DNA from: Anaerocolumna sp. AGMB13025
GTDB lineage: Bacteria > Bacillota > Clostridia > Lachnospirales > Lachnospiraceae
Length of the DNA: 64,000 bases
Assembly (NCBI RefSeq): GCF_029689925.1
Contig: NZ_CP121445.1
Span: 3,766,501 to 3,830,500 of the forward strand
Direction of reading: 5' to 3'
Below are positions 7,428 to 35,984 of this stretch, piece after piece. The notes under the pieces were generated by a model. That model searched no databases. It was not told where the DNA came from and saw only the letters and a program-made list of their open reading frames with translations. Position numbers and translations under genes: made by a program. Numbering within the stretch: position 1 is the first letter of the stretch; each line of letters opens with the position of its first letter.

Positions 7428-8516
7428 TTATACCCTAAGAATTGTTCCGCCGCCCACTACGTAATCTCCATCATAAAAAACAACTGCCTGTCCAGGCGTA
7501 ACTGCTCTTTGGGGTTCTTTAAAGATACATTCGATTTTATCCATATCAACTTTGCGGATAACACACTTAGAACCCTTATGGCTGTAACGGATTTTAGCTG
7601 TTACTTCCATCTCGCCTTCTAAGTCATTTATTGACATGAAATTCAGATTATCTGCATAAAGAGTATTGCTATAAACTTCATCACCGTTTCCAATTACCAC
7701 CTCATTGGTTTCCGGTCGTATCGCAAGTACAAAGACCGGATGCCCCATGGCAAGATTCAGGCCTTTTCGTTGTCCGACGGTATAATGGATAATGCCCTTA
7801 TGTTTTCCGATAACTTTTCCATCTGAAGTTACATAGTTCCCTTCTTTTGGTTCATTGCCGGAGTATTCTGTGATAAACTTGGCATAGTCATTATCCGGAA
7901 TAAAGCAGATTTCCTGGCTGTCTGGTTTATTGGCTACTCTTAAATTTATATTAGCTGCCATACTGCGGATTTCATCCTTGGTATATTCCCCTACCGGCAT
8001 CAGGGTATGTGCTAATTGATCCTGGGTTAAGTTATATAATGCATAGGTCTGATCTTTGCTGTCAGTAGCTGACTTTTTTAAGGTATATCTTCCGTTTTCA
8101 AGCTGAATGACTCTGGCGTAATGACCCGTTGCTATATAATCAGCTCCGATATCCAGGGACCGCTTTAGCAGGGACTCCCATTTAACATAACGGTTGCAGG
8201 CAATACATGGATTCGGTGTATTTCCTTTTATATACTCCTTAGCAAAATAATCAATAACTGCATCCTTAAATTCATTCTTAAAGTTCATAACATAATAAGG
8301 TATGTCCAGTGCATAGGCAACCCGCCTGGCATCATCCACTGCACTTAAGCCGCAGCAGCCTCCGCTTTCTTCCTGGGCAGCCGTGTCTTCATCCTGCCAT
8401 ATCTGCATGGTTACCCCAATTACATCATATCCGGCATTTTTAAGTAAATAAGCAGCTACGGAAGAATCCACGCCTCCGGACATGCCTACCACTACTTTTT
8501 TTCTTTCCAAGTACAT
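7428..8516 (-). CDS. mnmA: tRNA 2-thiouridylase MnmA
   Basis: MnmA thiolates U34 of Lys, Glu and Gln tRNAs using persulfide sulfur from a cysteine desulfurase. Visible features are the PP-loop motif [10 protein letters not shown] at about residues 12-20, the catalytic Cys pair (NPCIACN near residue 104 and SQEICFIP near 200) and the C-terminal beta-barrel region. Length (about 360) is normal. It follows nifU by 5 bp in the iscR-nifS-nifU-mnmA order, a common Clostridial arrangement that supplies its sulfur donor. ATG 8516 lies only one base from AGGAGG; TTG at 8510 has better spacing and may be the true start, two codons shorter. Confidence 0.95.
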
Positions 8517-8521
8517 GCCTC

Positions 8522-8959
8522 CTAGTAGATTTCTTCTTCTTCCCCTTCACTGATATCGGTCTTTGGCTTTTCCAAACCGTTAATAACGATATTGTTCTTG
8601 GTAGCATAGTCCCAAAGAGCAGCATGAATTGCTTCTTCTGCTAATAAGGAACAGTGTACTTTCACGGCGGGAAGTCCGTCTAAAGCATCCATTACCGCTT
8701 TATTGGTTACTTCTAAAGCTTCCTGAATGTTTTTACCTTTAACAAGTTCGGTAGCCATACTGCTAGTAGCAACGGCAGCACCGCAGCCAAAGGTTTTAAA
8801 CTTAACATCCTGAATAATACCATTGTCATTAATGTCTAAATAAATCCTCATGATATCACCGCATTTTGCATTGCCTACTGTACCGACACCACTGGCATTT
8901 TCTATCTCGCCTACATTTCTTGGGTTACTGAAATGATCCATAACTTTCTCACTGTACAT
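8522..8959 (-). CDS. nifU: Fe-S cluster assembly scaffold, IscU/NifU N-terminal type
   Basis: A 145-residue scaffold on which [2Fe-2S] clusters are built from sulfur delivered by the desulfurase. The three ligand Cys are present: NAKCGD, FGCGAA and [11 protein letters not shown]. It has no ferredoxin-like or C-terminal Nfu domain, so it is the short IscU-like form. The start is ATG 8959, preceded by AAAGGAGG; a frame opening at 8992 lies upstream of that site. The C-terminus is unusually acidic (a Glu run before the stop). It is 5 bp from mnmA and 321 bp from nifS. Confidence 0.93.
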
Positions 8960-9280
8960 TTTAATTCCTCCTTTATCACTAAACATCACCACAGGGATGA
9001 AAATTCTATTCTGTTAAATTTTAAACTAGCCAAAATATATAATACCAAATCTTATCACATAATAATTACTTAACATTATCATATATAAAATACTTTATAA
9101 TCATATATATGAAATAACTCTGTTATAAAAATCCATCAGTCGATAAATTCTTGTTTAGAACTCCAATAACATAAGGTTTTTTCAAATTAATAATACTTAA
9201 TGAAATTGCACTTCGCACAGATACTATTTTACTTGCATTCTGCTTTTGATATCGAAATTCCTTACATAAAATCCACCGAA
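8960..9280. other. AT-rich spacer between nifS and nifU, no gene seen
   Basis: This 321-bp gap interrupts an otherwise tight cluster. It is very AT-rich, has stop codons in all frames and shows no clear terminator. It may hold a separate nifU-mnmA promoter, but no convincing -35/-10 pair with good spacing was found. Confidence 0.4.
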
Positions 9281-11156: not shown

Positions 11157-12698
11157 ATGACAAAAAACAAAAGCAATTTAATCAAGGGTACGGTGGTGTT
11201 AACATTAGCCGGTCTGGCCACCCGTTTTATTGGTTTCTTCTATCGTATATTTTTATCCAATGTAATGGGTGCCGAACTCCTTGGCATATACCAGCTGGTA
11301 TTTCCAATTTACATGATTTGTTTTACCATATTTGCCTCTGGCATTCAGACCGCTATTTCAACACTGGTTGCCAATGAATTAGGTAAGCAGCATTACAAAA
11401 ATATATCGAAGGTACTAAGGATTGGTATTCTTATGTCCCTGAGTGCAGCCCTTTTGTTAGCCCTGCTTGTATACCGCTATTCTGCAGTTATTGCCGTTAG
11501 TATCTTGAAAGAACCAGACTGCGCTTCCTCGGTGCAGATGCTTGCTTTTGCTTTTCCTTTCTGCGGAGTCACCGCTTGTATTAACGGTTATTATTATGGA
11601 CTTAAAAAAGCCGGGGTTCCTGCAGCAACCCAGCTTTTGGAACAGATCATACGTGTAATAATTGTATACATAATTGCCTCCTATGCAGGCAGCGGTAATA
11701 TCAAGGTAACCAGTGAATTGGCCGTATTAGGCATTGTAATAGGAGAAATTGCATCAAATCTTTATAATATTGTTTCCCTTTATTGCTCCCGTACTCCCAG
11801 AGAAATTAAAAGACTTGCAAAATCGACCGGGAATTCCTCTTATCAAATGGAAGAACCGATAACCGGCAGATTATTTAAAATGACGCTGCCTTTAACGGCA
11901 AACCGGCTGTTAATCAGTATCCTTCACAGCGTAGAAGCAATTCTGATTCCAAGTATGCTGAAAAAATACGGTTTAAGCACTTCCGAAGCCTTAAGTATAT
12001 ACGGTATATTAAATGGTATGTCTATACCCTTTATTATGTTTCCTTCCGCTATTACTAATTCCCTGTCGGTCTTATTACTGCCTACCATATCAGAAGCCCA
12101 GTCCTCCCGTAATGAAGAAATGATCCGAAAAACCACGGCTGTTTCCATTAAATACAGTGTGCTGATCGGTATCTTAAGTACAGGTATATTTGTCAGCTTC
12201 GGACAGGAATTGGGGAATACGATTTTTCACAATGAATTAGCCGGGAGCCTTCTTGCAACCTTAGCCTGGCTTTGTCCCTTTCTCTACATAACAACAACCT
12301 TAAGCAGCATAATCAATGGTTTGGGATTGGCTCATCTAACCTTTGCCAATTCTGTAGTCGGTCTGTCGGTCCGCATACTCTTAATCCTGTTTCTGGTACC
12401 CAGACAGGGTATGAACGGATATTTAATAAGCCTGTTAATCAGCCAGTTAGTCATTACTACCTTTGACGGTTTTATCGTCATAAGGAAAACCAAACCGCCT
12501 TTTGAAGCATCCGATTTATTGTTAAAACCGGGATTGATTGCAGCCCTGTCCGGTTATATTTTTTACAGATTGTATGAATACATATCTCCGAAACTGGGAG
12601 GTCTTCCGGTTATACTAGGCTGTATCTTTTTCGTATGTGTGGTCTATATTATGTTATTAGGCATAACAAAAGCTGTTTCCTTAAAAGATTTTAAGTAA
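11157..12698 (+). CDS. spoVB: SpoVB-like polysaccharide/lipid II flippase (MOP superfamily)
   Basis: A 513-residue integral membrane protein with about 14 predicted helices, close in length and N-terminal sequence (GTVVLTLAG, then FYRIFLSNVMG) to stage V sporulation protein B. SpoVB belongs to the MurJ/Wzx branch of MOP flippases and is needed for spore cortex peptidoglycan, so the host is probably a spore former. TTTGGAG at about 11145-11150 supports ATG 11157. It is monocistronic, divergent from iscR, and its 3' end overlaps the convergent GGDEF gene by 8 bp. YtgP-like paralogues share the fold, so a vegetative role is possible. Confidence 0.87.
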   Translation: MTKNKSNLIKGTVVLTLAGLATRFIGFFYRIFLSNVMGAELLGIYQLVFPIYMICFTIFASGIQTAISTLVANELGKQHYKNISKVLRIGILMSLSAALLLALLVYRYSAVIAVSILKEPDCASSVQMLAFAFPFCGVTACINGYYYGLKKAGVPAATQLLEQIIRVIIVYIIASYAGSGNIKVTSELAVLGIVIGEIASNLYNIVSLYCSRTPREIKRLAKSTGNSSYQMEEPITGRLFKMTLPLTANRLLISILHSVEAILIPSMLKKYGLSTSEALSIYGILNGMSIPFIMFPSAITNSLSVLLLPTISEAQSSRNEEMIRKTTAVSIKYSVLIGILSTGIFVSFGQELGNTIFHNELAGSLLATLAWLCPFLYITTTLSSIINGLGLAHLTFANSVVGLSVRILLILFLVPRQGMNGYLISLLISQLVITTFDGFIVIRKTKPPFEASDLLLKPGLIAALSGYIFYRLYEYISPKLGGLPVILGCIFFVCVVYIMLLGITKAVSLKDFK

Positions 12699-29745: not shown

Positions 29746-30267
29746 CTTCTTTATTTATCAACGCAATCAAGTACTTCCCATGGATCCTACATCTTACATA
29801 GTCTTTACTGCAGTCGTTTATGTCCAATATTTTTTATTATCCTTTTATTTTTTACAAAAAAAATAAAATACTCAATCGTTAATGATAAAATGCATTATTT
29901 ATGATTAAATAGGTATTTAAAAGGTCAATTGTTTACTATACTTCACATCAATTTTATTATTCTGTTTCTTAAAAAAACCTGACACCAATGATATGATAAT
30001 TGGTGTAAAATAGTGATAATTTATGTTACTTTTATTTTTTCAAAAAGTACCTCTGATTCTAGTATTTAAAGTCATTTTAGAGTTCATAAAGAGTTACTTG
30101 ATATACATAATAAGCACAACTTCTAACAATGTACTCATAGTTGGAATTCCTTTTTTTATTAGGGTTTCAAGACTGTTGTACACCACAATGTCATAATTTA
30201 CACCACTCGTACACCATTGAAACTCACAACTTTGTTCTCATACACTTTCTCTTTTGCCTGAATGACG
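29746..30267. other. AT-rich left edge of the accessory island, no gene
   Basis: No open frame with a ribosome binding site was found. The region holds an inverted pair ACACCAAT (29983-29990) and ATTGGTGT (29999-30006) and a cluster of three TACACCA motifs (30179-30216). Confidence 0.5.
30179..30216 (+). repeat. Left TACACCA array, candidate recombinase arm sites
   Basis: TACACCA occurs at 30179, 30199 and 30210. The last two are separated by CTCG. The right array (34936-34976) has the same three-copy arrangement with ATCG in that position. Nearby inverted copies are at 30001 and at 30532, the latter overlapping the excisionase-like gene start. Confidence 0.6.
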
Positions 30268-30308
30268 AAAAAAACGTCGAATCTAAAGTTTTTATACTTT
30301 AGTCGACG
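30268..30308 (-). terminator. Terminator of the excisionase-like gene
   Basis: CGTCGA (30275-30280) plus CTAAAG (30283-30288) pair with CTTTAG (30297-30302) plus TCGACG (30303-30308). The minus strand continues into seven U. It is 30 bp after the stop at 30338. Confidence 0.8.
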
Positions 30309-30337
30309 CATTCTCTCAACCTAAATCAAATATTTTT

Positions 30338-30532
30338 TTATCTAAACTCTGTCTGCATTTCCAACCACTCATCTAGTTTCTTCTTATGAGCGTATAGACG
30401 ATTGCCAATGCGGACAGTAAATTTGTTCCTGCTATCATCTAATATTTCCCGTGCTTTGCTCTTATTAATACCAAGGTAAGCACAGAATTCGTCTAGATTG
30501 AGCAGGGCTTTGTTATAATCATATTGTTGCAT
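30338..30532 (-). CDS. Excisionase-like small DNA-binding protein
   Basis: A 64-residue protein with an N-terminal MerR/Xis-type winged helix (LLNLDEFCAYLGINKSKARE), a wing (KFTVRIGNRLYAHKK) and a final helix (LDEWLEMQ). This is the pattern of Tn916 Xis and other small excisionases that bend DNA at att sites. AGGAGG precedes ATG 30532, and the motif TACACCA overlaps the start codon on the minus strand. The same motif forms arrays at both island ends, so the protein may bind it and control its own synthesis (inference). No integrase lies nearby. Confidence 0.72.
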   Translation of the reverse strand: MQQYDYNKALLNLDEFCAYLGINKSKAREILDDSRNKFTVRIGNRLYAHKKKLDEWLEMQTEFR

Positions 30533-30569
30533 GGTGTACCTCCTGGTATTGAATTTTGGGTAAAGGATT

Positions 30570-30588
30570 AGCCCCGCGATGCGGGGCT
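30570..30588 (-). terminator. GC-rich hairpin between the MBL and excisionase-like genes
   Basis: AGCCCCGC (30570-30577) and GCGGGGCT (30581-30588) form a perfect 8-bp stem with a 3-nt loop. The U-tract is weak on both strands. It stands out strongly from the AT-rich surroundings and probably ends the upstream operon. Confidence 0.6.
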
Positions 30589-30646
30589 TGATTTATCTAT
30601 AATATGTAAATACTCAAAGGAATTACCTTATATCATTATATTACTT

Positions 30647-31603
30647 TTAGACTACAAACTCTAATGCATTTCCCTGTTTCTGGGCTTTAATTGGTTCCAT
30701 ATCAACCAAATTGTATCTATAATACCATTCACCATATGAATCAGTGTTTAGATCTTTATCATTCTTACCGGTTATATGAACTTTTTTCGATATTGTAGAA
30801 TACTGCTCCAATACTTCATTCATAGGTAAGCGTTGTTTTGTATAATTTGTAGAACATGAAATAGGTATTTTTATTTTTTTATCAAACAAATCAATCAATT
30901 CTGTCGATGTAATAGAGCCATGGTGCGGAATTTTTAAAAATGATAGGGATTTAGGAAATATATTCTTTTGTATTCTTAAAATTGCTTCATCAATAATATC
31001 CCCCGCAAAAAAGTAATTAAACGTAGAATTAATTTGAACATTACACGCAATAGAATAGTCATTACAATACGTACTATTTTTTGTGGACTTCATTAACAAA
31101 TGTTTTGAGTTTGGCAATAATGTTGTTACACTCAGTTCAATCTGCTCCTCAGACACTGCGTTATTAAAAAATACACTGAATTTTTGCTCTGCCACCATTT
31201 CTATCTGTACATCACTTGCCAATAAATCTTTTAATTTATCCACCACCGACTTTGAATATTTGGTTAATGCTCCTTTTCTGTCAAATATAGAATGAGGTAT
31301 TAGCACAACAGAATTTTCTTTTATATAATGATCCAAGATTTCTAGCAAACCAAAACTATGATCATAATCGGTGTGGGACCATATTAATAGATTAACCTTA
31401 TCAACTTTATGACTTTTAAGAATATCAATAGTCCTATTTGTTTTTCCCTTTTTAAAACTATCAATTACCATTGTATATACAATGTTCTCTTTATCATCTC
31501 TTAAAAATAGAATAATTGATTCACCTTCGACGGGATAACCAATTACATGGATGTCAACAAACTGAATTCTGTTACTAATAGCATATCTTACATCATCAAT
31601 CAT
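30647..31603 (-). CDS. ComEC-type metallo-beta-lactamase-fold hydrolase
   Basis: A 318-residue stand-alone MBL-fold protein resembling the soluble C-terminal domain of ComEC/Rec2. Metal-binding motifs are in place: HTDYDH at residues 77-82, NDYS at 181-184, FFAGD at 198-202 and KIPHHGS at 224-230. Family members are nucleases or phosphodiesterases. There is no signal peptide or membrane segment, so it is cytoplasmic. It is the last gene of a three-gene operon; its ATG overlaps the preceding stop by 4 bp and has no ribosome binding site, so translation depends on coupling. The gene is AT-richer than core genes. A nuclease or second-messenger hydrolase role in a defence module is possible but inferred. 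Confidence 0.82.
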   Translation of the reverse strand: MIDDVRYAISNRIQFVDIHVIGYPVEGESIILFLRDDKENIVYTMVIDSFKKGKTNRTIDILKSHKVDKVNLLIWSHTDYDHSFGLLEILDHYIKENSVVLIPHSIFDRKGALTKYSKSVVDKLKDLLASDVQIEMVAEQKFSVFFNNAVSEEQIELSVTTLLPNSKHLLMKSTKNSTYCNDYSIACNVQINSTFNYFFAGDIIDEAILRIQKNIFPKSLSFLKIPHHGSITSTELIDLFDKKIKIPISCSTNYTKQRLPMNEVLEQYSTISKKVHITGKNDKDLNTDSYGEWYYRYNLVDMEPIKAQKQGNALEFVV

Positions 31604-31773
31604 CTTATTGCCCAGTTATTTAGTTCTCTTACAGGTTTAGCTCCTGTAATTTTCCTATATTGAGGTAATTCTATCTCATTCATTTTACTTAATGTAGGCT
31701 TCTGAGGTTTTTCAAATTTAATTTCACTAAGTAGTTTTGTATAATTATCATTTGACTTCACGGTTTTAATCAT
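31600..31773 (-). CDS. Small 57-residue protein linking the TIGR04255-like and MBL genes
   Basis: Reading the minus strand between the two larger genes gives a 57-codon frame from ATG 31773 to TGA at 31602-31600. AAGGAG is well placed before the ATG. It overlaps the upstream gene by 8 bp and the downstream ATG by 4 bp, so the three genes are one translationally coupled unit. The product is hydrophilic and basic in its second half, with no membrane segment; it begins MIKTVKSNDN and ends ELNNWAIR. I do not recognise it. Size and position suggest a partner, adaptor or inhibitor of its neighbours. Confidence 0.7.
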   Translation of the reverse strand: MIKTVKSNDNYTKLLSEIKFEKPQKPTLSKMNEIELPQYRKITGAKPVRELNNWAIR

Positions 31774-32560
31774 TTGACTTCACTCCTTCTATGTTTAATT
31801 CAGAGCACTTACCTTCTTTCAAGCATTTAATAAAACTATCATTCATAATACAGGTAAAAATTTCATGAAATATTTCATCATTAATGGTCGTCATTCTATC
31901 TCTTAATGTACTGATGTCCATTGATTTTACAGTCCCAACTATATCAAATATAAACTGCAAAATATTGATTTCTTGATTCTTTTCATCAGTAACAATAACT
32001 GGAGCAATGAATTGAACTATTTGATAATCAGTATCATTAATCTTCAAATCTAGAATATTTTGATAATTTTTTATATCATCATGTAAATAAACCGTATTAA
32101 ATGCTTCAGATTTAAATCCTTTAAATAAATCATCGATTGTATAGGGAAAGCATCTGTTTATTTTTCTTATACTAATTTTACTACATGCAAGAAATTCTTG
32201 CAATTTATTTATTTCTTCTAGCAAATCACAAAATATATTCTTATATTTTTGAAAATTTACATATTTTTCTACTCTAACCCTAACTTCCATAAAAATTTCT
32301 GAAATTTTAAGTTCAATCAGTCCATCTTTCGTTTTAAACACAAACACTCGAACACCACTATTTTTTTCATCTTCAGAATCTTTTTCATAAAGATTTAAAT
32401 TTCTTTCACTTATAAAATCAGTGAATCCTTTATCTTTTATTTTTCCCTGCAAATTGTCAATTAAACCACTCACTGAAAAGATTCCATCATAATCAGCGCG
32501 AAGTATAATCATATTTAATATATTATATTTAAAATCTTTTTTATCATGGATTTGAGACAT
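31766..32560 (-). CDS. TIGR04255-like protein of unknown function
   Basis: A 264-residue soluble protein. The start is placed at ATG 32560, after AAGGAGTG; an upstream in-frame ATG at 32656 has no such site. Its layout recalls TIGR04255, a sporadically distributed family of about 250 residues: an N-terminal beta-rich segment (NMIILRADYDG), a central helical region, and the phrase KISIRKINRCFP where TIGR04255 proteins carry an LRxxNR-type motif. The match is by eye and distant. TIGR04255 proteins have no established activity and are often found in variable genomic regions. It is the first gene of the operon with the 57-residue protein and the MBL hydrolase. Confidence 0.5.
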   Translation of the reverse strand: MSQIHDKKDFKYNILNMIILRADYDGIFSVSGLIDNLQGKIKDKGFTDFISERNLNLYEKDSEDEKNSGVRVFVFKTKDGLIELKISEIFMEVRVRVEKYVNFQKYKNIFCDLLEEINKLQEFLACSKISIRKINRCFPYTIDDLFKGFKSEAFNTVYLHDDIKNYQNILDLKINDTDYQIVQFIAPVIVTDEKNQEINILQFIFDIVGTVKSMDISTLRDRMTTINDEIFHEIFTCIMNDSFIKCLKEGKCSELNIEGVKSND

Positions 32561-32643
32561 TCTAACACTCCTTGATATCTTTCTATTTTTAAATAGTATA
32601 ACACACTTTGCACTAATATGATATAAATTAATGCTACTTTTAT

Positions 32644-32789
32644 TATCTATCTCCACGTGTAGGGAGTTGGTAAACGTATCAACAAATAGATCATCAATTA
32701 ACCATCAAGCTCACTTACTAGAAGCATTCCAATCCATTGACATTCAAGCAATATTATCAAAGCCTAAAATATTAGATTTATTTAATTGA
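32644..32789 (+). pseudogene. Possible C-terminal coding remnant
   Basis: On the plus strand a frame stays open for 48 codons to TGA at 32787-32789, with protein-like composition (HQAHLLEAFQSIDIQAIL, then SKPKILDLF). It has no start or ribosome binding site. It may be the tail of a gene lost when the island was rearranged, or chance in AT-rich DNA. Confidence 0.25.
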
Positions 32790-32792
32790 TTT

Positions 32793-34208
32793 TTATCTAT
32801 TTTTATTTCTTTTATTTATTGTCTCAAGTATTGATTCTTTATCCTTAAGAGTGTTAGCATAACTTTTTATTCCTAAACCTACATCAAGTGTTGTTGGAAT
32901 ATAAGATATATATGGGATATACCCGGCAATAGCTTTTCCTAATCCCCATATAGCTTTTTTACTAGTCATCTTTCTAGTTTTTGCAATTTTTTTACATTCA
33001 TCATCTAATAACTCATCTATCTTTGAAAACACTTCTATGGCGATTTCTTCAAACTGATCAGGTGTATTATGAATTGAAGCAACTGCTTTACCCAAAAAAT
33101 CTCTATACTGTGTAACATTCTTGTATTCACGATGGTCTAATATTTCATCAGATGAAAGTTCTACTATTTCTGCTAATTTATCATTCCTGTGAATAGCACA
33201 CATATATTTAAACTCATCAGAAGCCGGAAAAGCATTACCCGCCACTTCATACAAAAACGGTTCCCATTCATCTTTATTAAATATAGGGTTAGCTTTAAAA
33301 TTAATGGATTCTTTACAATGCATTTTGTATGTATAATGATTAGTTGTTATGATATTGTTTATTATCGCATAATTCAATACACATCGCATAAAGTCTTTAT
33401 TAAAACATCCCCACGATTCATTCATAAATTGAATATATTGTTGAATTGTATCTTTCTCCATTGTATCCCACTCATATTGTTGAGCTTCTGCCATATTGAT
33501 ATATATTTCACATTCTGCCATTTTCTTCTCAATTTGCAAATCAGACAAGCTCTTAAGTATTTCTATATTCTTCCATAATTCAGTTTCACCACTATAATCA
33601 ACTCCAAACAAATTTTTTGATATATCAACTGCATTTTTCCTACAACTCTGATACAACACCTCTTCCTCATTTGATTCCGTCATTATATTTGTCGGATAAA
33701 TGATAGCAAATATCTCTTTATTTGTAGTAAGTACATAAGACTTCAAATCCATCAGTTCTAATACATTTTTATAGAATGTATTTATAAATGAATAATTTAA
33801 ATTATCTCTTTTATTTGCATAGGGCGTGTAAAAAGGATCATTTAGTATAAGCAGGTCGTAATACAATGCGTTTTGCTTAATTTCTGTTTCATAGTATGAA
33901 ACATATTTATCATCACAAGCCCCAAATAATCCAATATTTGAATAAGAATTTAATCCTTCATTTATTATTTTTTTCCGATCATCCCAAAATTTTTTTACTC
34001 TTGATCTAAATTCATTTCTTCTATAAGATAAATTATTTTCATCACTACATAAAATTATAGATTTTTGATTATCCAAATATTTCTTTATAAATACCACTTT
34101 TTCCTTTCCACTTTTCTTGTATTCTTGATAAAATGAGCCATAAAATTCATCAAAAATCAAATAATATTCGCTTTCAATTTTGTATAAACTTTCGTTCCGA
34201 TAGTTCAT
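32793..34208 (-). CDS. Hypothetical protein with a hydrophobic C-terminal segment
   Basis: A 471-residue protein that I do not recognise. Most of it is hydrophilic and predicted helical, rich in Asn, Lys, Glu and Tyr. Near the C-terminus (about 418-450) there is a Gly/Ile/Pro-rich hydrophobic stretch (AIWGLGKAIAGYIPYISYIP) followed by a charged tail, which could insert in a membrane. The ribosome binding site before ATG 34208 is weak (AAAGGGAAA). It is transcribed toward the TIGR04255-MBL operon, ending 233 bp before it, and shares its AT-rich composition. A membrane-acting effector is one possibility, but nothing in the sequence shows it. Confidence 0.65.
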   Translation of the reverse strand: MNYRNESLYKIESEYYLIFDEFYGSFYQEYKKSGKEKVVFIKKYLDNQKSIILCSDENNLSYRRNEFRSRVKKFWDDRKKIINEGLNSYSNIGLFGACDDKYVSYYETEIKQNALYYDLLILNDPFYTPYANKRDNLNYSFINTFYKNVLELMDLKSYVLTTNKEIFAIIYPTNIMTESNEEEVLYQSCRKNAVDISKNLFGVDYSGETELWKNIEILKSLSDLQIEKKMAECEIYINMAEAQQYEWDTMEKDTIQQYIQFMNESWGCFNKDFMRCVLNYAIINNIITTNHYTYKMHCKESINFKANPIFNKDEWEPFLYEVAGNAFPASDEFKYMCAIHRNDKLAEIVELSSDEILDHREYKNVTQYRDFLGKAVASIHNTPDQFEEIAIEVFSKIDELLDDECKKIAKTRKMTSKKAIWGLGKAIAGYIPYISYIPTTLDVGLGIKSYANTLKDKESILETINKRNKNR

Positions 34209-35078
34209 GATTGAGTTTCCCTTTCCTATGCTTATAAGTCTAATGTCACAAATATTTCTTAGCTAATTTAATTTCTGCTTATCTATCTTATACAAACATT
34301 TATTTGAGCACATTTTCTTATCAATTACTTTATGCTTTTTCTAATATTTTTCTATTAAAACTCTATATTATATAGCCTTGAAATCAACATCGCAATAATA
34401 TTTTAAGATACCCTTAATTCATCTTAAAATAAAAATAATTTAATCTCATTGCTTTTTTACAAATTGGTTATATAATAAATTTATTATACAGCTAAATTTT
34501 ATATTTTAAAATCTGTTTTCAATGTAATATCCTAAAATGCTATCAAAATCCCCCTGCAATAGTGTTTTGTGCACTCTTTTAGGGGATTCCCCTCTAACAA
34601 GACATCAGAGACTAGAGATATCTCAGATGCGTATCTTGCCATGCTCCCCTCGAAATTTTTATAAGTCTTTTTCACTTCCTTAAATAACGGATAAGTAAAA
34701 AGTAAATTGTCTCCACACATTAATAATTCATATCTGGATTATTTCCTTGCATAACAAAAGCACCGCCAATTTTACATGACGATGCTCTCATCCGATCGAC
34801 GCATTTTTCTTTATAAATTGTTATTAGTTTCAATTATCTTTTGCTCGATGTAGAAGATTCAGTTCTAATTCATTCCACCAAATGAATTTTCACGCAAAAA
34901 CAACCTTTCAAATCCAACTTCACTACCATAAAGTGTACACCATCAAAATAATCTTCTGTACACCAATCGTACACCAATTTTGAGTATAATTACGATATTT
35001 TACGGCAGCTTGCGACACCTTGTTTTTCTCACTAAAGACTCACAACCCCTGTAAATACGCAATTCTCCCTAAGATTGC
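34209..35078. other. Non-coding right part of the island
   Basis: These 870 bp are very AT-rich. A 62-codon minus-strand frame (34532-34720) has no ribosome binding site and no recognisable motif, and I do not count it as a gene. The right TACACCA array (34936-34976) and the ACTCACAAC repeat (35038-35046) lie at its right end. Confidence 0.45.
34936..34976 (+). repeat. Right TACACCA array, candidate recombinase arm sites
   Basis: TACACCA occurs at 34936, 34959 and 34970, the last two separated by ATCG. The array matches the left array at 30179-30216 in number, order and orientation. Confidence 0.6.
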
Positions 35079-35984
35079 CTATAGCTCATATGGCGTCACC
35101 TGATATACATAATAATTCAACCAATTCGTATACATCGCATTCGCATGCGCCCGCCAGGTTAAGCTGGGCTTATTATCATCTATATCATTCGGATAATAAT
35201 TCACCGGCAACTGTATGTCAAGACCTTTTCCCTTGTCCCGCTTATACTCTTTATCCAGGGTTATCCGGTCATATTCCGGATGTCCCATTACGAATATCTG
35301 CCTGCCTTCATCAGCTATCACGATAAATACTCCTGCTTCTTCCGATTCAGCTAGTATGGTCAGGTTCGGATTACTTTCGATATCCTCTCTGGATACGGTA
35401 GTATGTCTGGAGTGAGGGGCATAAAAAATATCGTCAAACCCTCTTACAAATGGTTCTTTACGATTTAATACCTTGTGAAGAAATACACCGAACATTTTTT
35501 CCTCTAAGGGAACTTTGCGGATACCATAATGATAATATAGTCCTGCCTGTGCTCCCCAGCAGATATGAAGGGTGGAGGTGACGTTAGTTTTTGACCACTT
35601 CATGATCTCAACTAGCTCCTCCCAGTAGTTTACTTCTTCAAATTCCATCTGTTCCACCGGAGCCCCTGTAATTATCAGTCCGTCAAATCTCAGATTTTTG
35701 ACCTCTTCATACGTTTGATAAAACTGATCCAGATGGCTGGCAGCCGTATTTTTTCCAACATAGGAACCTGTTGTTAAAAAAGTTACATCAACCTGCAAAG
35801 GGGTATTGGACAAACTACGCAGCAACTGAACCTCTGTGTCCTCCTTAAGAGGCATGAGATTTAATATTGCAATCTTAAGAGGACGTATATCCTGATGCAT
35901 GGCTCTTTTCTCATCCATCATGAATATATTCTCATCTTCCAATATCTTTTTTGCCGGCAAATCGCTTTGTACTTTTATAGGCAT
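35079..35984 (-). CDS. metA: Homoserine O-acyltransferase MetA (predicted acetyl-CoA specific)
   Basis: A 301-residue MetA that acylates homoserine, the first committed step of methionine synthesis. The catalytic Cys142 is in HICWGAQAG, and the His/Glu partners lie in the expected C-terminal region (the MGHPEYD motif). Residue 111 is Glu (GAPVE). In the MetA family, Glu at this position is reported to favour acetyl-CoA, as in Bacillus, and Gly to favour succinyl-CoA, as in E. coli. So the product is probably O-acetylhomoserine. Monocistronic; no SAM or T-box riboswitch was seen upstream. Its 3' end borders the accessory island. Confidence 0.93.

Follow-up and report, generated by a model that had tools for sequence, protein, structure and literature searches.

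A recurrent three-gene set encoding a TIGR04255-family protein and a ComEC-like metallo-beta-lactamase: a candidate mobile phage-defence module in Anaerocolumna

Introduction

Several unrelated immune systems have acquired nucleases of the metallo-beta-lactamase (MBL) type as effectors, together with a protease that activates them. According to one source, related MBLs are DNases that are kept inactive until infection and then released by the partner protease (PMC12799240); the MBL pro-nucleases named there include Avs1a of AVAST type 1, LmuA of Lamassu (a PADLOC model), HamM of Hachiman, RTasMBL of defence-associated reverse transcriptases (DRT) and CanC of Canu. Here we analyze a stretch of 64,000 nucleotides (the window) at positions 3,766,501-3,830,500 of the 6.8-Mb single-contig genome of Anaerocolumna sp. 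AGMB13025. Three minus-strand genes in the window, running from 32560 to 30647, encode, in this order, a protein of the TIGR04255 family, a small protein of 57 residues and an MBL resembling ComEC. Because the trio is found again in other bacteria, within their defence islands and phages, it is probably an undescribed phage-defence system, and a system with an MBL effector is the most likely reading of the sequence comparisons described below.

The trio is a conserved, compact and mobile gene set, found in an islet at metA, in restriction islands and in phages, and its MBL has kept the metal site. Beyond this, we lean towards a mobile three-gene module for anti-phage (or anti-mobile-element) defence, with the MBL as a putative nuclease effector. 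In the open-access literature, which leaves most subscription papers and bioRxiv preprints outside, no paper describing the trio is found, judged by titles and the starts of abstracts, and no full text uses TIGR04255, the InterPro or alternative names that we presume it to have, or 6A-MBL.

The trio and its recurrence

An earlier reading of the letters alone (the sequence-only reading) had proposed three translationally coupled genes here, and their coordinates and lengths are as it gave them, with overlaps of 8 bp between the first and second genes and 4 bp between the second and third. The first gene starts with an ATG at 32560, with a Shine-Dalgarno-like AAGGAG just 5' of it; the list of open reading frames (ORFs) gives an in-frame GTG at 32656 as the start. 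The junction of the first two genes also holds a 15-bp exact repeat, its copies 22 bp apart (31747-31783), so that VKSND, from the C-terminus of one protein, reappears close to the N-terminus of the following one.

The trio is present in the same order at six distinct loci: the window, L001/L037 (285, 55 and 344 residues), L171 (303, 54 and 330), L172 (310, 53 and 318; the same phage as L188), L189 (286, 58 and 319) and L190 (280, 66-75 and 320). At all six, neighbouring genes either share 4 to about 44 bp or are separated by no more than 3 bp. The MBL of L001/L037 is 26% identical to that of the window (E 4e-21). Three of the five further loci are virus contigs, one of which (L188) is also found in a bacterial genome as L172.

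The recurrence was reached from both ends of the trio. L001 was found with the TIGR04255 model, and the remaining loci with MBL profiles run against 348 same-family genomes and against viral contigs. Besides the window, the MBL profiles match two genome loci (cut-off 1e-8) and three virus contigs, and all five carry the trio. TIGR04255 matches are infrequent, occurring in 2 of 392 genomes of the order, 5 of 398 of the phylum and 1 of 391 of the class, the window's own genome included each time; of the six distinct genomes so matched, two have the trio.

The surroundings differ greatly from locus to locus. L037 lies among an AlwI-type restriction enzyme, two methylases and a SocA/Panacea antitoxin, and L171 among Shedu SduA (E 5.6e-99), PDC-S35/TIR (E 4.3e-91), a PD-T7-3-like protein and a type I restriction system. 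The neighbours of L172/L188 read as phage tail, holin and amidase genes (weak family matches), and L189 lies, by reading, between integrase/excisionase-like and tail-like genes. L190 has a 297-residue gene upstream and, by reading, ABC-transporter and two-component genes downstream. The sequence-only reading had proposed a gene-neighbourhood search as a check and would have given up the idea of a system if the genes did not co-occur elsewhere; the trio co-occurs at six distinct loci in these very different settings.

The MBL and what it is related to

The HTDYDH and PHHGS motifs, noted as intact in the sequence-only reading, are so. The window MBL matches the profiles of ComEC_Rec2 (E 2.7e-9), Avs1a (E 9e-7), LmuA (E 1.2e-9) and RTasMBL, the reverse-transcriptase-associated MBL (E 3.8e-8), and the nearest profiles of the trio MBLs include defence MBLs. 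It falls far below the equivalog cut-offs for ComEC/Rec2 (35.7 versus 190 bits, with a match to the C-terminal part only), for AVAST type 1 Avs1a (28 versus 420) and for 6A-MBL (20.4 versus 220). In five aligned trio MBLs the residues H77, D81, H82, D202, H227 and H228 are invariant, and position 79 is D, C, H, D and D. A structure predicted from the single MBL sequence, with a predicted local distance difference test (pLDDT) of 40.9, is too poor to show whether there are active-site-blocking insertions of the pro-nuclease kind.

Could the MBL be a housekeeping or DNA-uptake enzyme that lies beside unrelated genes by chance? The match to the C-terminal domain of ComEC would fit, and the sequence-only reading had named membership of a housekeeping family as the finding that would undo its proposal. 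However, the genome holds a separate ComEC-size match, in a frame of 848 residues, and in the MBL tree the six trio MBLs stand on one side of a branch (support 100/99) from the 28 other rows, 21 of which come from ComEC-size frames. The trio MBL is thus not the housekeeping enzyme. The spacing from HxxxDH to HHG is also longer, 151-172 residues in the six trio MBLs versus 120-147 in ComEC rows, of which 18 out of 21 could be scored and some are near-identical. Such MBLs are rare (3 of the 348 same-family genomes, the window's own included, at the 1e-8 cut-off of the profile search), and the reciprocal co-occurrence of the trio genes contradicts a chance association. We regard a housekeeping role as highly improbable. 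Taken together, co-occurrence at six loci and an MBL that is not a housekeeping enzyme support a mobile conflict or defence system with a predicted MBL effector.

A second alternative starts from the virus contigs, which make up three of the six trio loci. Apyc1 is an MBL-fold anti-Pycsar nuclease that destroys nucleotide second messengers, and the trio MBL could likewise be a phosphodiesterase of a phage counter-defence or superinfection module. Phage-encoded nucleases that act on the signals of CBASS and Pycsar have been described (PMC9117128). The profile matches, however, go to ComEC, Avs1a, LmuA and RT-associated MBLs, two trio loci lie inside bacterial defence islands, and a counter-defence enzyme has no obvious need of two conserved partners. 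A module of this kind therefore seems quite unlikely to us.

As a separate observation, contig L187 (2-2232) encodes a 320-residue MBL beside a 177-residue protein with many hydrophobic stretches and, by reading, a CD-NTase-like protein; this is possibly a CBASS-like locus with an MBL.

The first gene and the small middle protein

The likeness of the first gene to TIGR04255, called distant in the sequence-only reading, is real, and the window protein passes the curated NCBIfam cut-off (Table 1). The model was run on the first genes of the window, L001, L171 and L172; those of L001 and L172 also score above the cut-off of 30 bits, at 54.8 and 31.1. When each of the six first genes is searched with a profile built from the other five, all are recovered, with E values from 3.3e-8 (L171) to 2.4e-43, the remaining values besides the window's being 5.6e-27, 5.9e-28 and 4.9e-40. 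In a background of 2,462 ORFs the trio first genes outrank every other ORF, and the next-best matches are canonical TIGR04255 proteins (4.5e-6 to 8.4e-4). The window protein is 9-17% identical to canonical family members (A6 alignment), and its predicted structure is of fair quality (pLDDT 77.9, predicted template modelling score 0.75).

The small middle protein is short and basic at all six trio loci, with 53-58 residues and an isoelectric point (pI) of 9.5-10.5 at five of them and 66-75 residues and a pI of 9.3-9.7 in L190. The window's 57-residue protein matches no family above cut-off in the library scans. Because a comparable small frame arises in only 0.6-2.4% of shuffled gaps per locus (five loci simulated, L190 left out), a chance origin of the 57-residue frame is unlikely.

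The wider TIGR04255 family

Outside the trio, TIGR04255 genes head other gene sets. In a plasmid survey 13 records matched TIGR04255 and 11 were opened, 10 of which have a helix-turn-helix (HTH) middle gene of about 190-230 residues followed by a third gene bearing the motif [ST][QH][TSD]CD[ILV], here called ‘QTCD’; locus L007 deviates from this arrangement. The HTH genes were called by annotation or by reading, and in L010 and L013 they are unannotated and were found as ORFs. For the one ‘QTCD’ protein examined, that of L012, no family of Pfam, NCBIfam or PADLOC scores above cut-off. The hosts of the plasmid loci L008-L017 and of L005 are Pseudomonadota, Actinomycetota and one cyanobacterium, and the third gene of L005 bears the like motif SQSCDL. 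In L004 the TIGR04255 gene accompanies a 178-residue gene and one for a HEPN-like protein (PF05168, E 0.008, short of cut-off), and in L087-L089 and L105 it accompanies two further uncharacterized genes; L087 is the same sequence as L003.

The genome scan covers the best 80 of 275 TIGR04255 matches, largely titled Oscillospiraceae, Flavonifractor, Pseudoflavonifractor or Clostridia. With five viral loci this gives 85, of which 84 could be checked; a coupled downstream frame is present in 54 and absent in 30. Since the criterion is lenient and admits many chance frames and ordinary genes among the 54, only the clear cases L082/L083, L087-L089, L105 and L113 are taken as modules. In L087, L088 and L113 (Peptococcaceae, Desulfosporosinus and Coriobacteriaceae contigs) the TIGR04255 gene is followed by a gene of 164-184 residues and preceded, within about 150 bp, by a same-strand frame of 951-1133 residues.

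The trio seems to be one form of a design with three genes, but the TIGR04255 family in its entirety is broader than defence modules. Speculatively, and with considerable doubt, TIGR04255 proteins could be unrecognized sensors that head a modular immune architecture of three genes, consisting of a sensor, a linker and an exchangeable third protein (MBL nuclease, HEPN-like or ‘QTCD’). Where the third protein is an MBL, the linker might have been reduced to a basic protein of some 53-75 residues, free to vary in sequence from locus to locus while its small size, charge and position are kept, and might serve as a rapidly evolving bait or gate that phages should be unable to imitate.

The plasmid modules also bear on a third alternative, an addiction (toxin-antitoxin-like) module that would retain the mobile element or phage rather than fight phages. 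The MBL would then be a toxic nuclease, and the small protein, the TIGR04255 protein or both would be antitoxin and regulator. A small gene coupled to the putative toxin and immediately preceding it would fit, the trio is carried on an integrated element and on phages, and in five of the opened plasmid records the middle gene is annotated as an HTH protein or transcriptional regulator. From general knowledge, though, three conserved genes with a first protein of 264-310 residues would be unusual for a toxin-antitoxin pair, and two trio loci lie among restriction or Shedu-type genes. We consider addiction improbable, if the strongest competitor to a defence module.

The carrier element at metA

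In the window, the trio is carried by an integrated element (Table 1). The sequence-only reading remarked that its genes are AT-rich and border metA. The element (30114-35079) is indeed low in G+C, with 29.1% versus 38.2% in the rest of the window, and the lowest value among 197 overlapping windows of the same length outside it is 32.6%. It does adjoin metA, and the relation is more than a border: flanking repeats and empty sites in relatives mark an insertion at the metA 3' end. In two same-genus genomes (L054 and L057) the window's two flanks are directly joined, and the joined flanks align as a single stretch of 1,215 bp at 77% with 14 gap openings (L054) and of 1,233 bp at 76% with 7 gap openings (L057). 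A metA match is present in 13 of 15 same-genus genomes, the window's own included, and eight metA regions were opened; in the remaining six the left flank of the window is missing, so that they are uninformative on the empty site.

Table 1. Features of the trio and of the element that carries it (window coordinates)
Feature	Position	Strand	Evidence or remarks
TIGR04255-family protein, 264 aa, trio gene 1	31766..32560	-	41.3 bits vs cut-off 30; leave-one-out E 3.4e-25
Small basic protein, 57 aa, pI 9.9, trio middle gene	31600..31773	-	overlaps both neighbours
MBL, putative effector, 318 aa, trio gene 3	30647..31603	-	HTDYDH and PHHGS intact
Integrated element, 4,966 bp, metA 3' end	30114..35079		empty sites, G+C; carries excisionase-like gene, trio and 471-aa gene
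attL, 36-bp copy of metA 3' end	30078..30113		direct repeat 81%; empty-site alignment
attR, metA 3' end itself	35080..35115		direct repeat 81%; empty-site alignment
Left-end array, three TACACCA sites (30179, 30199, 30210)	30179..30216	+	paired-pattern search
Right-end array, three TACACCA sites (34936, 34959, 34970)	34936..34976	+	paired-pattern search
Excisionase/HTH-like protein, 64 aa; element gene outside trio	30338..30532	-	HTH_17 3.1e-6
471-aa protein, hydrophobic C-terminal stretch; element cargo outside trio	32793..34208	-	no family above cut-off

The TACACCA arrays at the two ends are probable recombinase or Xis arm sites. The paired pattern TACACCANTCGTACACCA occurs twice in the window and in none of 100 window shuffles, and TACACCAMTCGTACACCAWT, allowing at most one mismatch, occurs in the whole 6.8-Mb genome solely at the two element ends. 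The paired end motif is absent from the 14 other same-genus genomes searched, where no parent element sharing it is found. There is no integrase among the frames of 30114-35079, and none of the genome's 18 PF00589 matches lies within the window. The gene that the sequence-only reading called excisionase-like just passes HTH_17 (27.8 versus a cut-off of 27) and falls short of the cut-offs for Tn916-Xis (E 0.0069) and TIGR01764 (E 8e-4). Given the att repeats, end arrays and excisionase-like gene without an integrase, the 5-kb element that carries the module probably moves by means of an integrase acting in trans or has lost its own. Elsewhere, the integrase-like frame at the end of a virus contig (L063) includes an exact copy of the right-end motif TACACCAATCGTACACCA (11589-11606), a lead to the recombinase that could move the metA element.

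The 471-residue protein was likewise brought into the proposed system by the sequence-only reading. Its hydrophobic C-terminus is readable in the sequence. A role in the system is not supported: tblastn against 167 loci from other places, L190 among them, gives no match to the protein at E<=0.01, and it has no relative in plasmids or phages and no family above cut-off in the library scans. The excisionase-like protein has no match in the 167 loci either, and both genes are passengers of the element, outside the conserved trio. Of the nuclease-based conflict or defence system first proposed, the part that stands is a mobile system with a predicted MBL effector, and the 471-residue component drops out.

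Family scans of the sister-species metA regions L053 and L056 reveal other defence-type genes. Downstream of metA, L053 (4455-9036) encodes a 305-residue defence-type MBL (LmuA, E 4.9e-33; motif spacing 184 residues), and the MBL gene overlaps that of a 1,223-residue protein. By reading, this protein looks at its start like a trypsin-type protease, fused to a P-loop protein; its family scan gives weak P-loop matches and no protease match. L056 has a PtuA/AriA-like ATPase directly downstream of metA (8181-9038). In this genus, defence genes may have a hotspot in the metA 3' region.

Strength of the reading and a proposed mechanism

Several observations weigh against a defence module. The first gene of L171 has no match to NCBIfam TIGR04255 at E<=1, its BLASTP comparison with the first gene of L172 is below significance (E 0.10), and it is joined to the others through the leave-one-out profile (E 3.3e-8). 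Pairwise scores among the small proteins of five loci are no better than those of shuffles (z -1.0 to 1.1). The MBL of L001 has C instead of D or H within HxxxDH, and a sister genome (L036, 7447-7785) has a decayed 112-residue C-terminal remnant of a trio-type MBL, its PHHGS motif altered, without the partners. The tree program warns of long branches, including those of the window and other trio rows; for this reason, and because the tree contains a single defence-type MBL (L053, on a very long branch), the tree does not fix the position of the trio MBLs relative to the pro-nucleases. Many Oscillospiraceae relatives of TIGR04255 look like lone chromosomal genes, and thus the family is not specific to defence. 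Finally, library scans find no protease family in the five window proteins of 30338-34208, and reading recognizes none at the other trio loci, where family scans cover only part of the neighbours.

If the trio is nevertheless a defence module, it may work as follows. The MBL would be a metal-dependent nuclease effector that is inactive in healthy cells, and the TIGR04255 protein would be a sensor or adaptor that reacts to infection. The small basic protein, produced in step with its neighbours through coupled translation, would link sensor to nuclease as an inhibitor, a chaperone or a DNA-contacting cofactor. Once triggered, the MBL would degrade DNA and the infection would be stopped. With no protease recognized, the control step must differ from that of the pro-nucleases, or use an unrecognized activity of the TIGR04255 protein.

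Comparison with known systems

The carrier resembles cis-mobilizable or integrase-less elements in having att repeats, an excisionase-like gene and end arrays but no integrase; it differs in that the 14 other same-genus genomes searched show no parent element sharing its end motif. NCBIfam TIGR04255 is a sporadically distributed family of unknown function, whose cut-off the first genes of the window, L001 and L172 pass. The window protein is tied to an MBL, whereas the canonical members opened are followed by HTH and ‘QTCD’ genes, a HEPN-like gene or other uncharacterized genes, or stand alone. If the module reading is correct, a role that can be tested would become available for this family, whose members are dispersed among many bacteria, plasmids and some phage records.

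Like the C-terminal domain of ComEC/Rec2, the trio MBL belongs to the MBL family, with HxDxDH and PHHGS motifs and sequence similarity; unlike ComEC/Rec2, it is a soluble protein of 318 residues without the membrane part, forms a separate tree group and has operon partners. With the MBL pro-nucleases (PMC12799240) the trio shares a predicted nuclease effector that is a soluble MBL resembling ComEC, a location in defence islands and a metal-motif spacing longer than that of ComEC. The conserved metal-binding motifs and the matches to the Avs1a, LmuA and RTasMBL profiles agree with a predicted MBL-fold nuclease. The partners are different: no trypsin- or caspase-like protease is recognized, and the MBL is accompanied by a tiny basic protein and one of the TIGR04255 family. 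Such a version, in which no protease is recognizable and the partners are a TIGR04255 protein and a tiny, highly variable one, would represent a second means of keeping an MBL nuclease safe.

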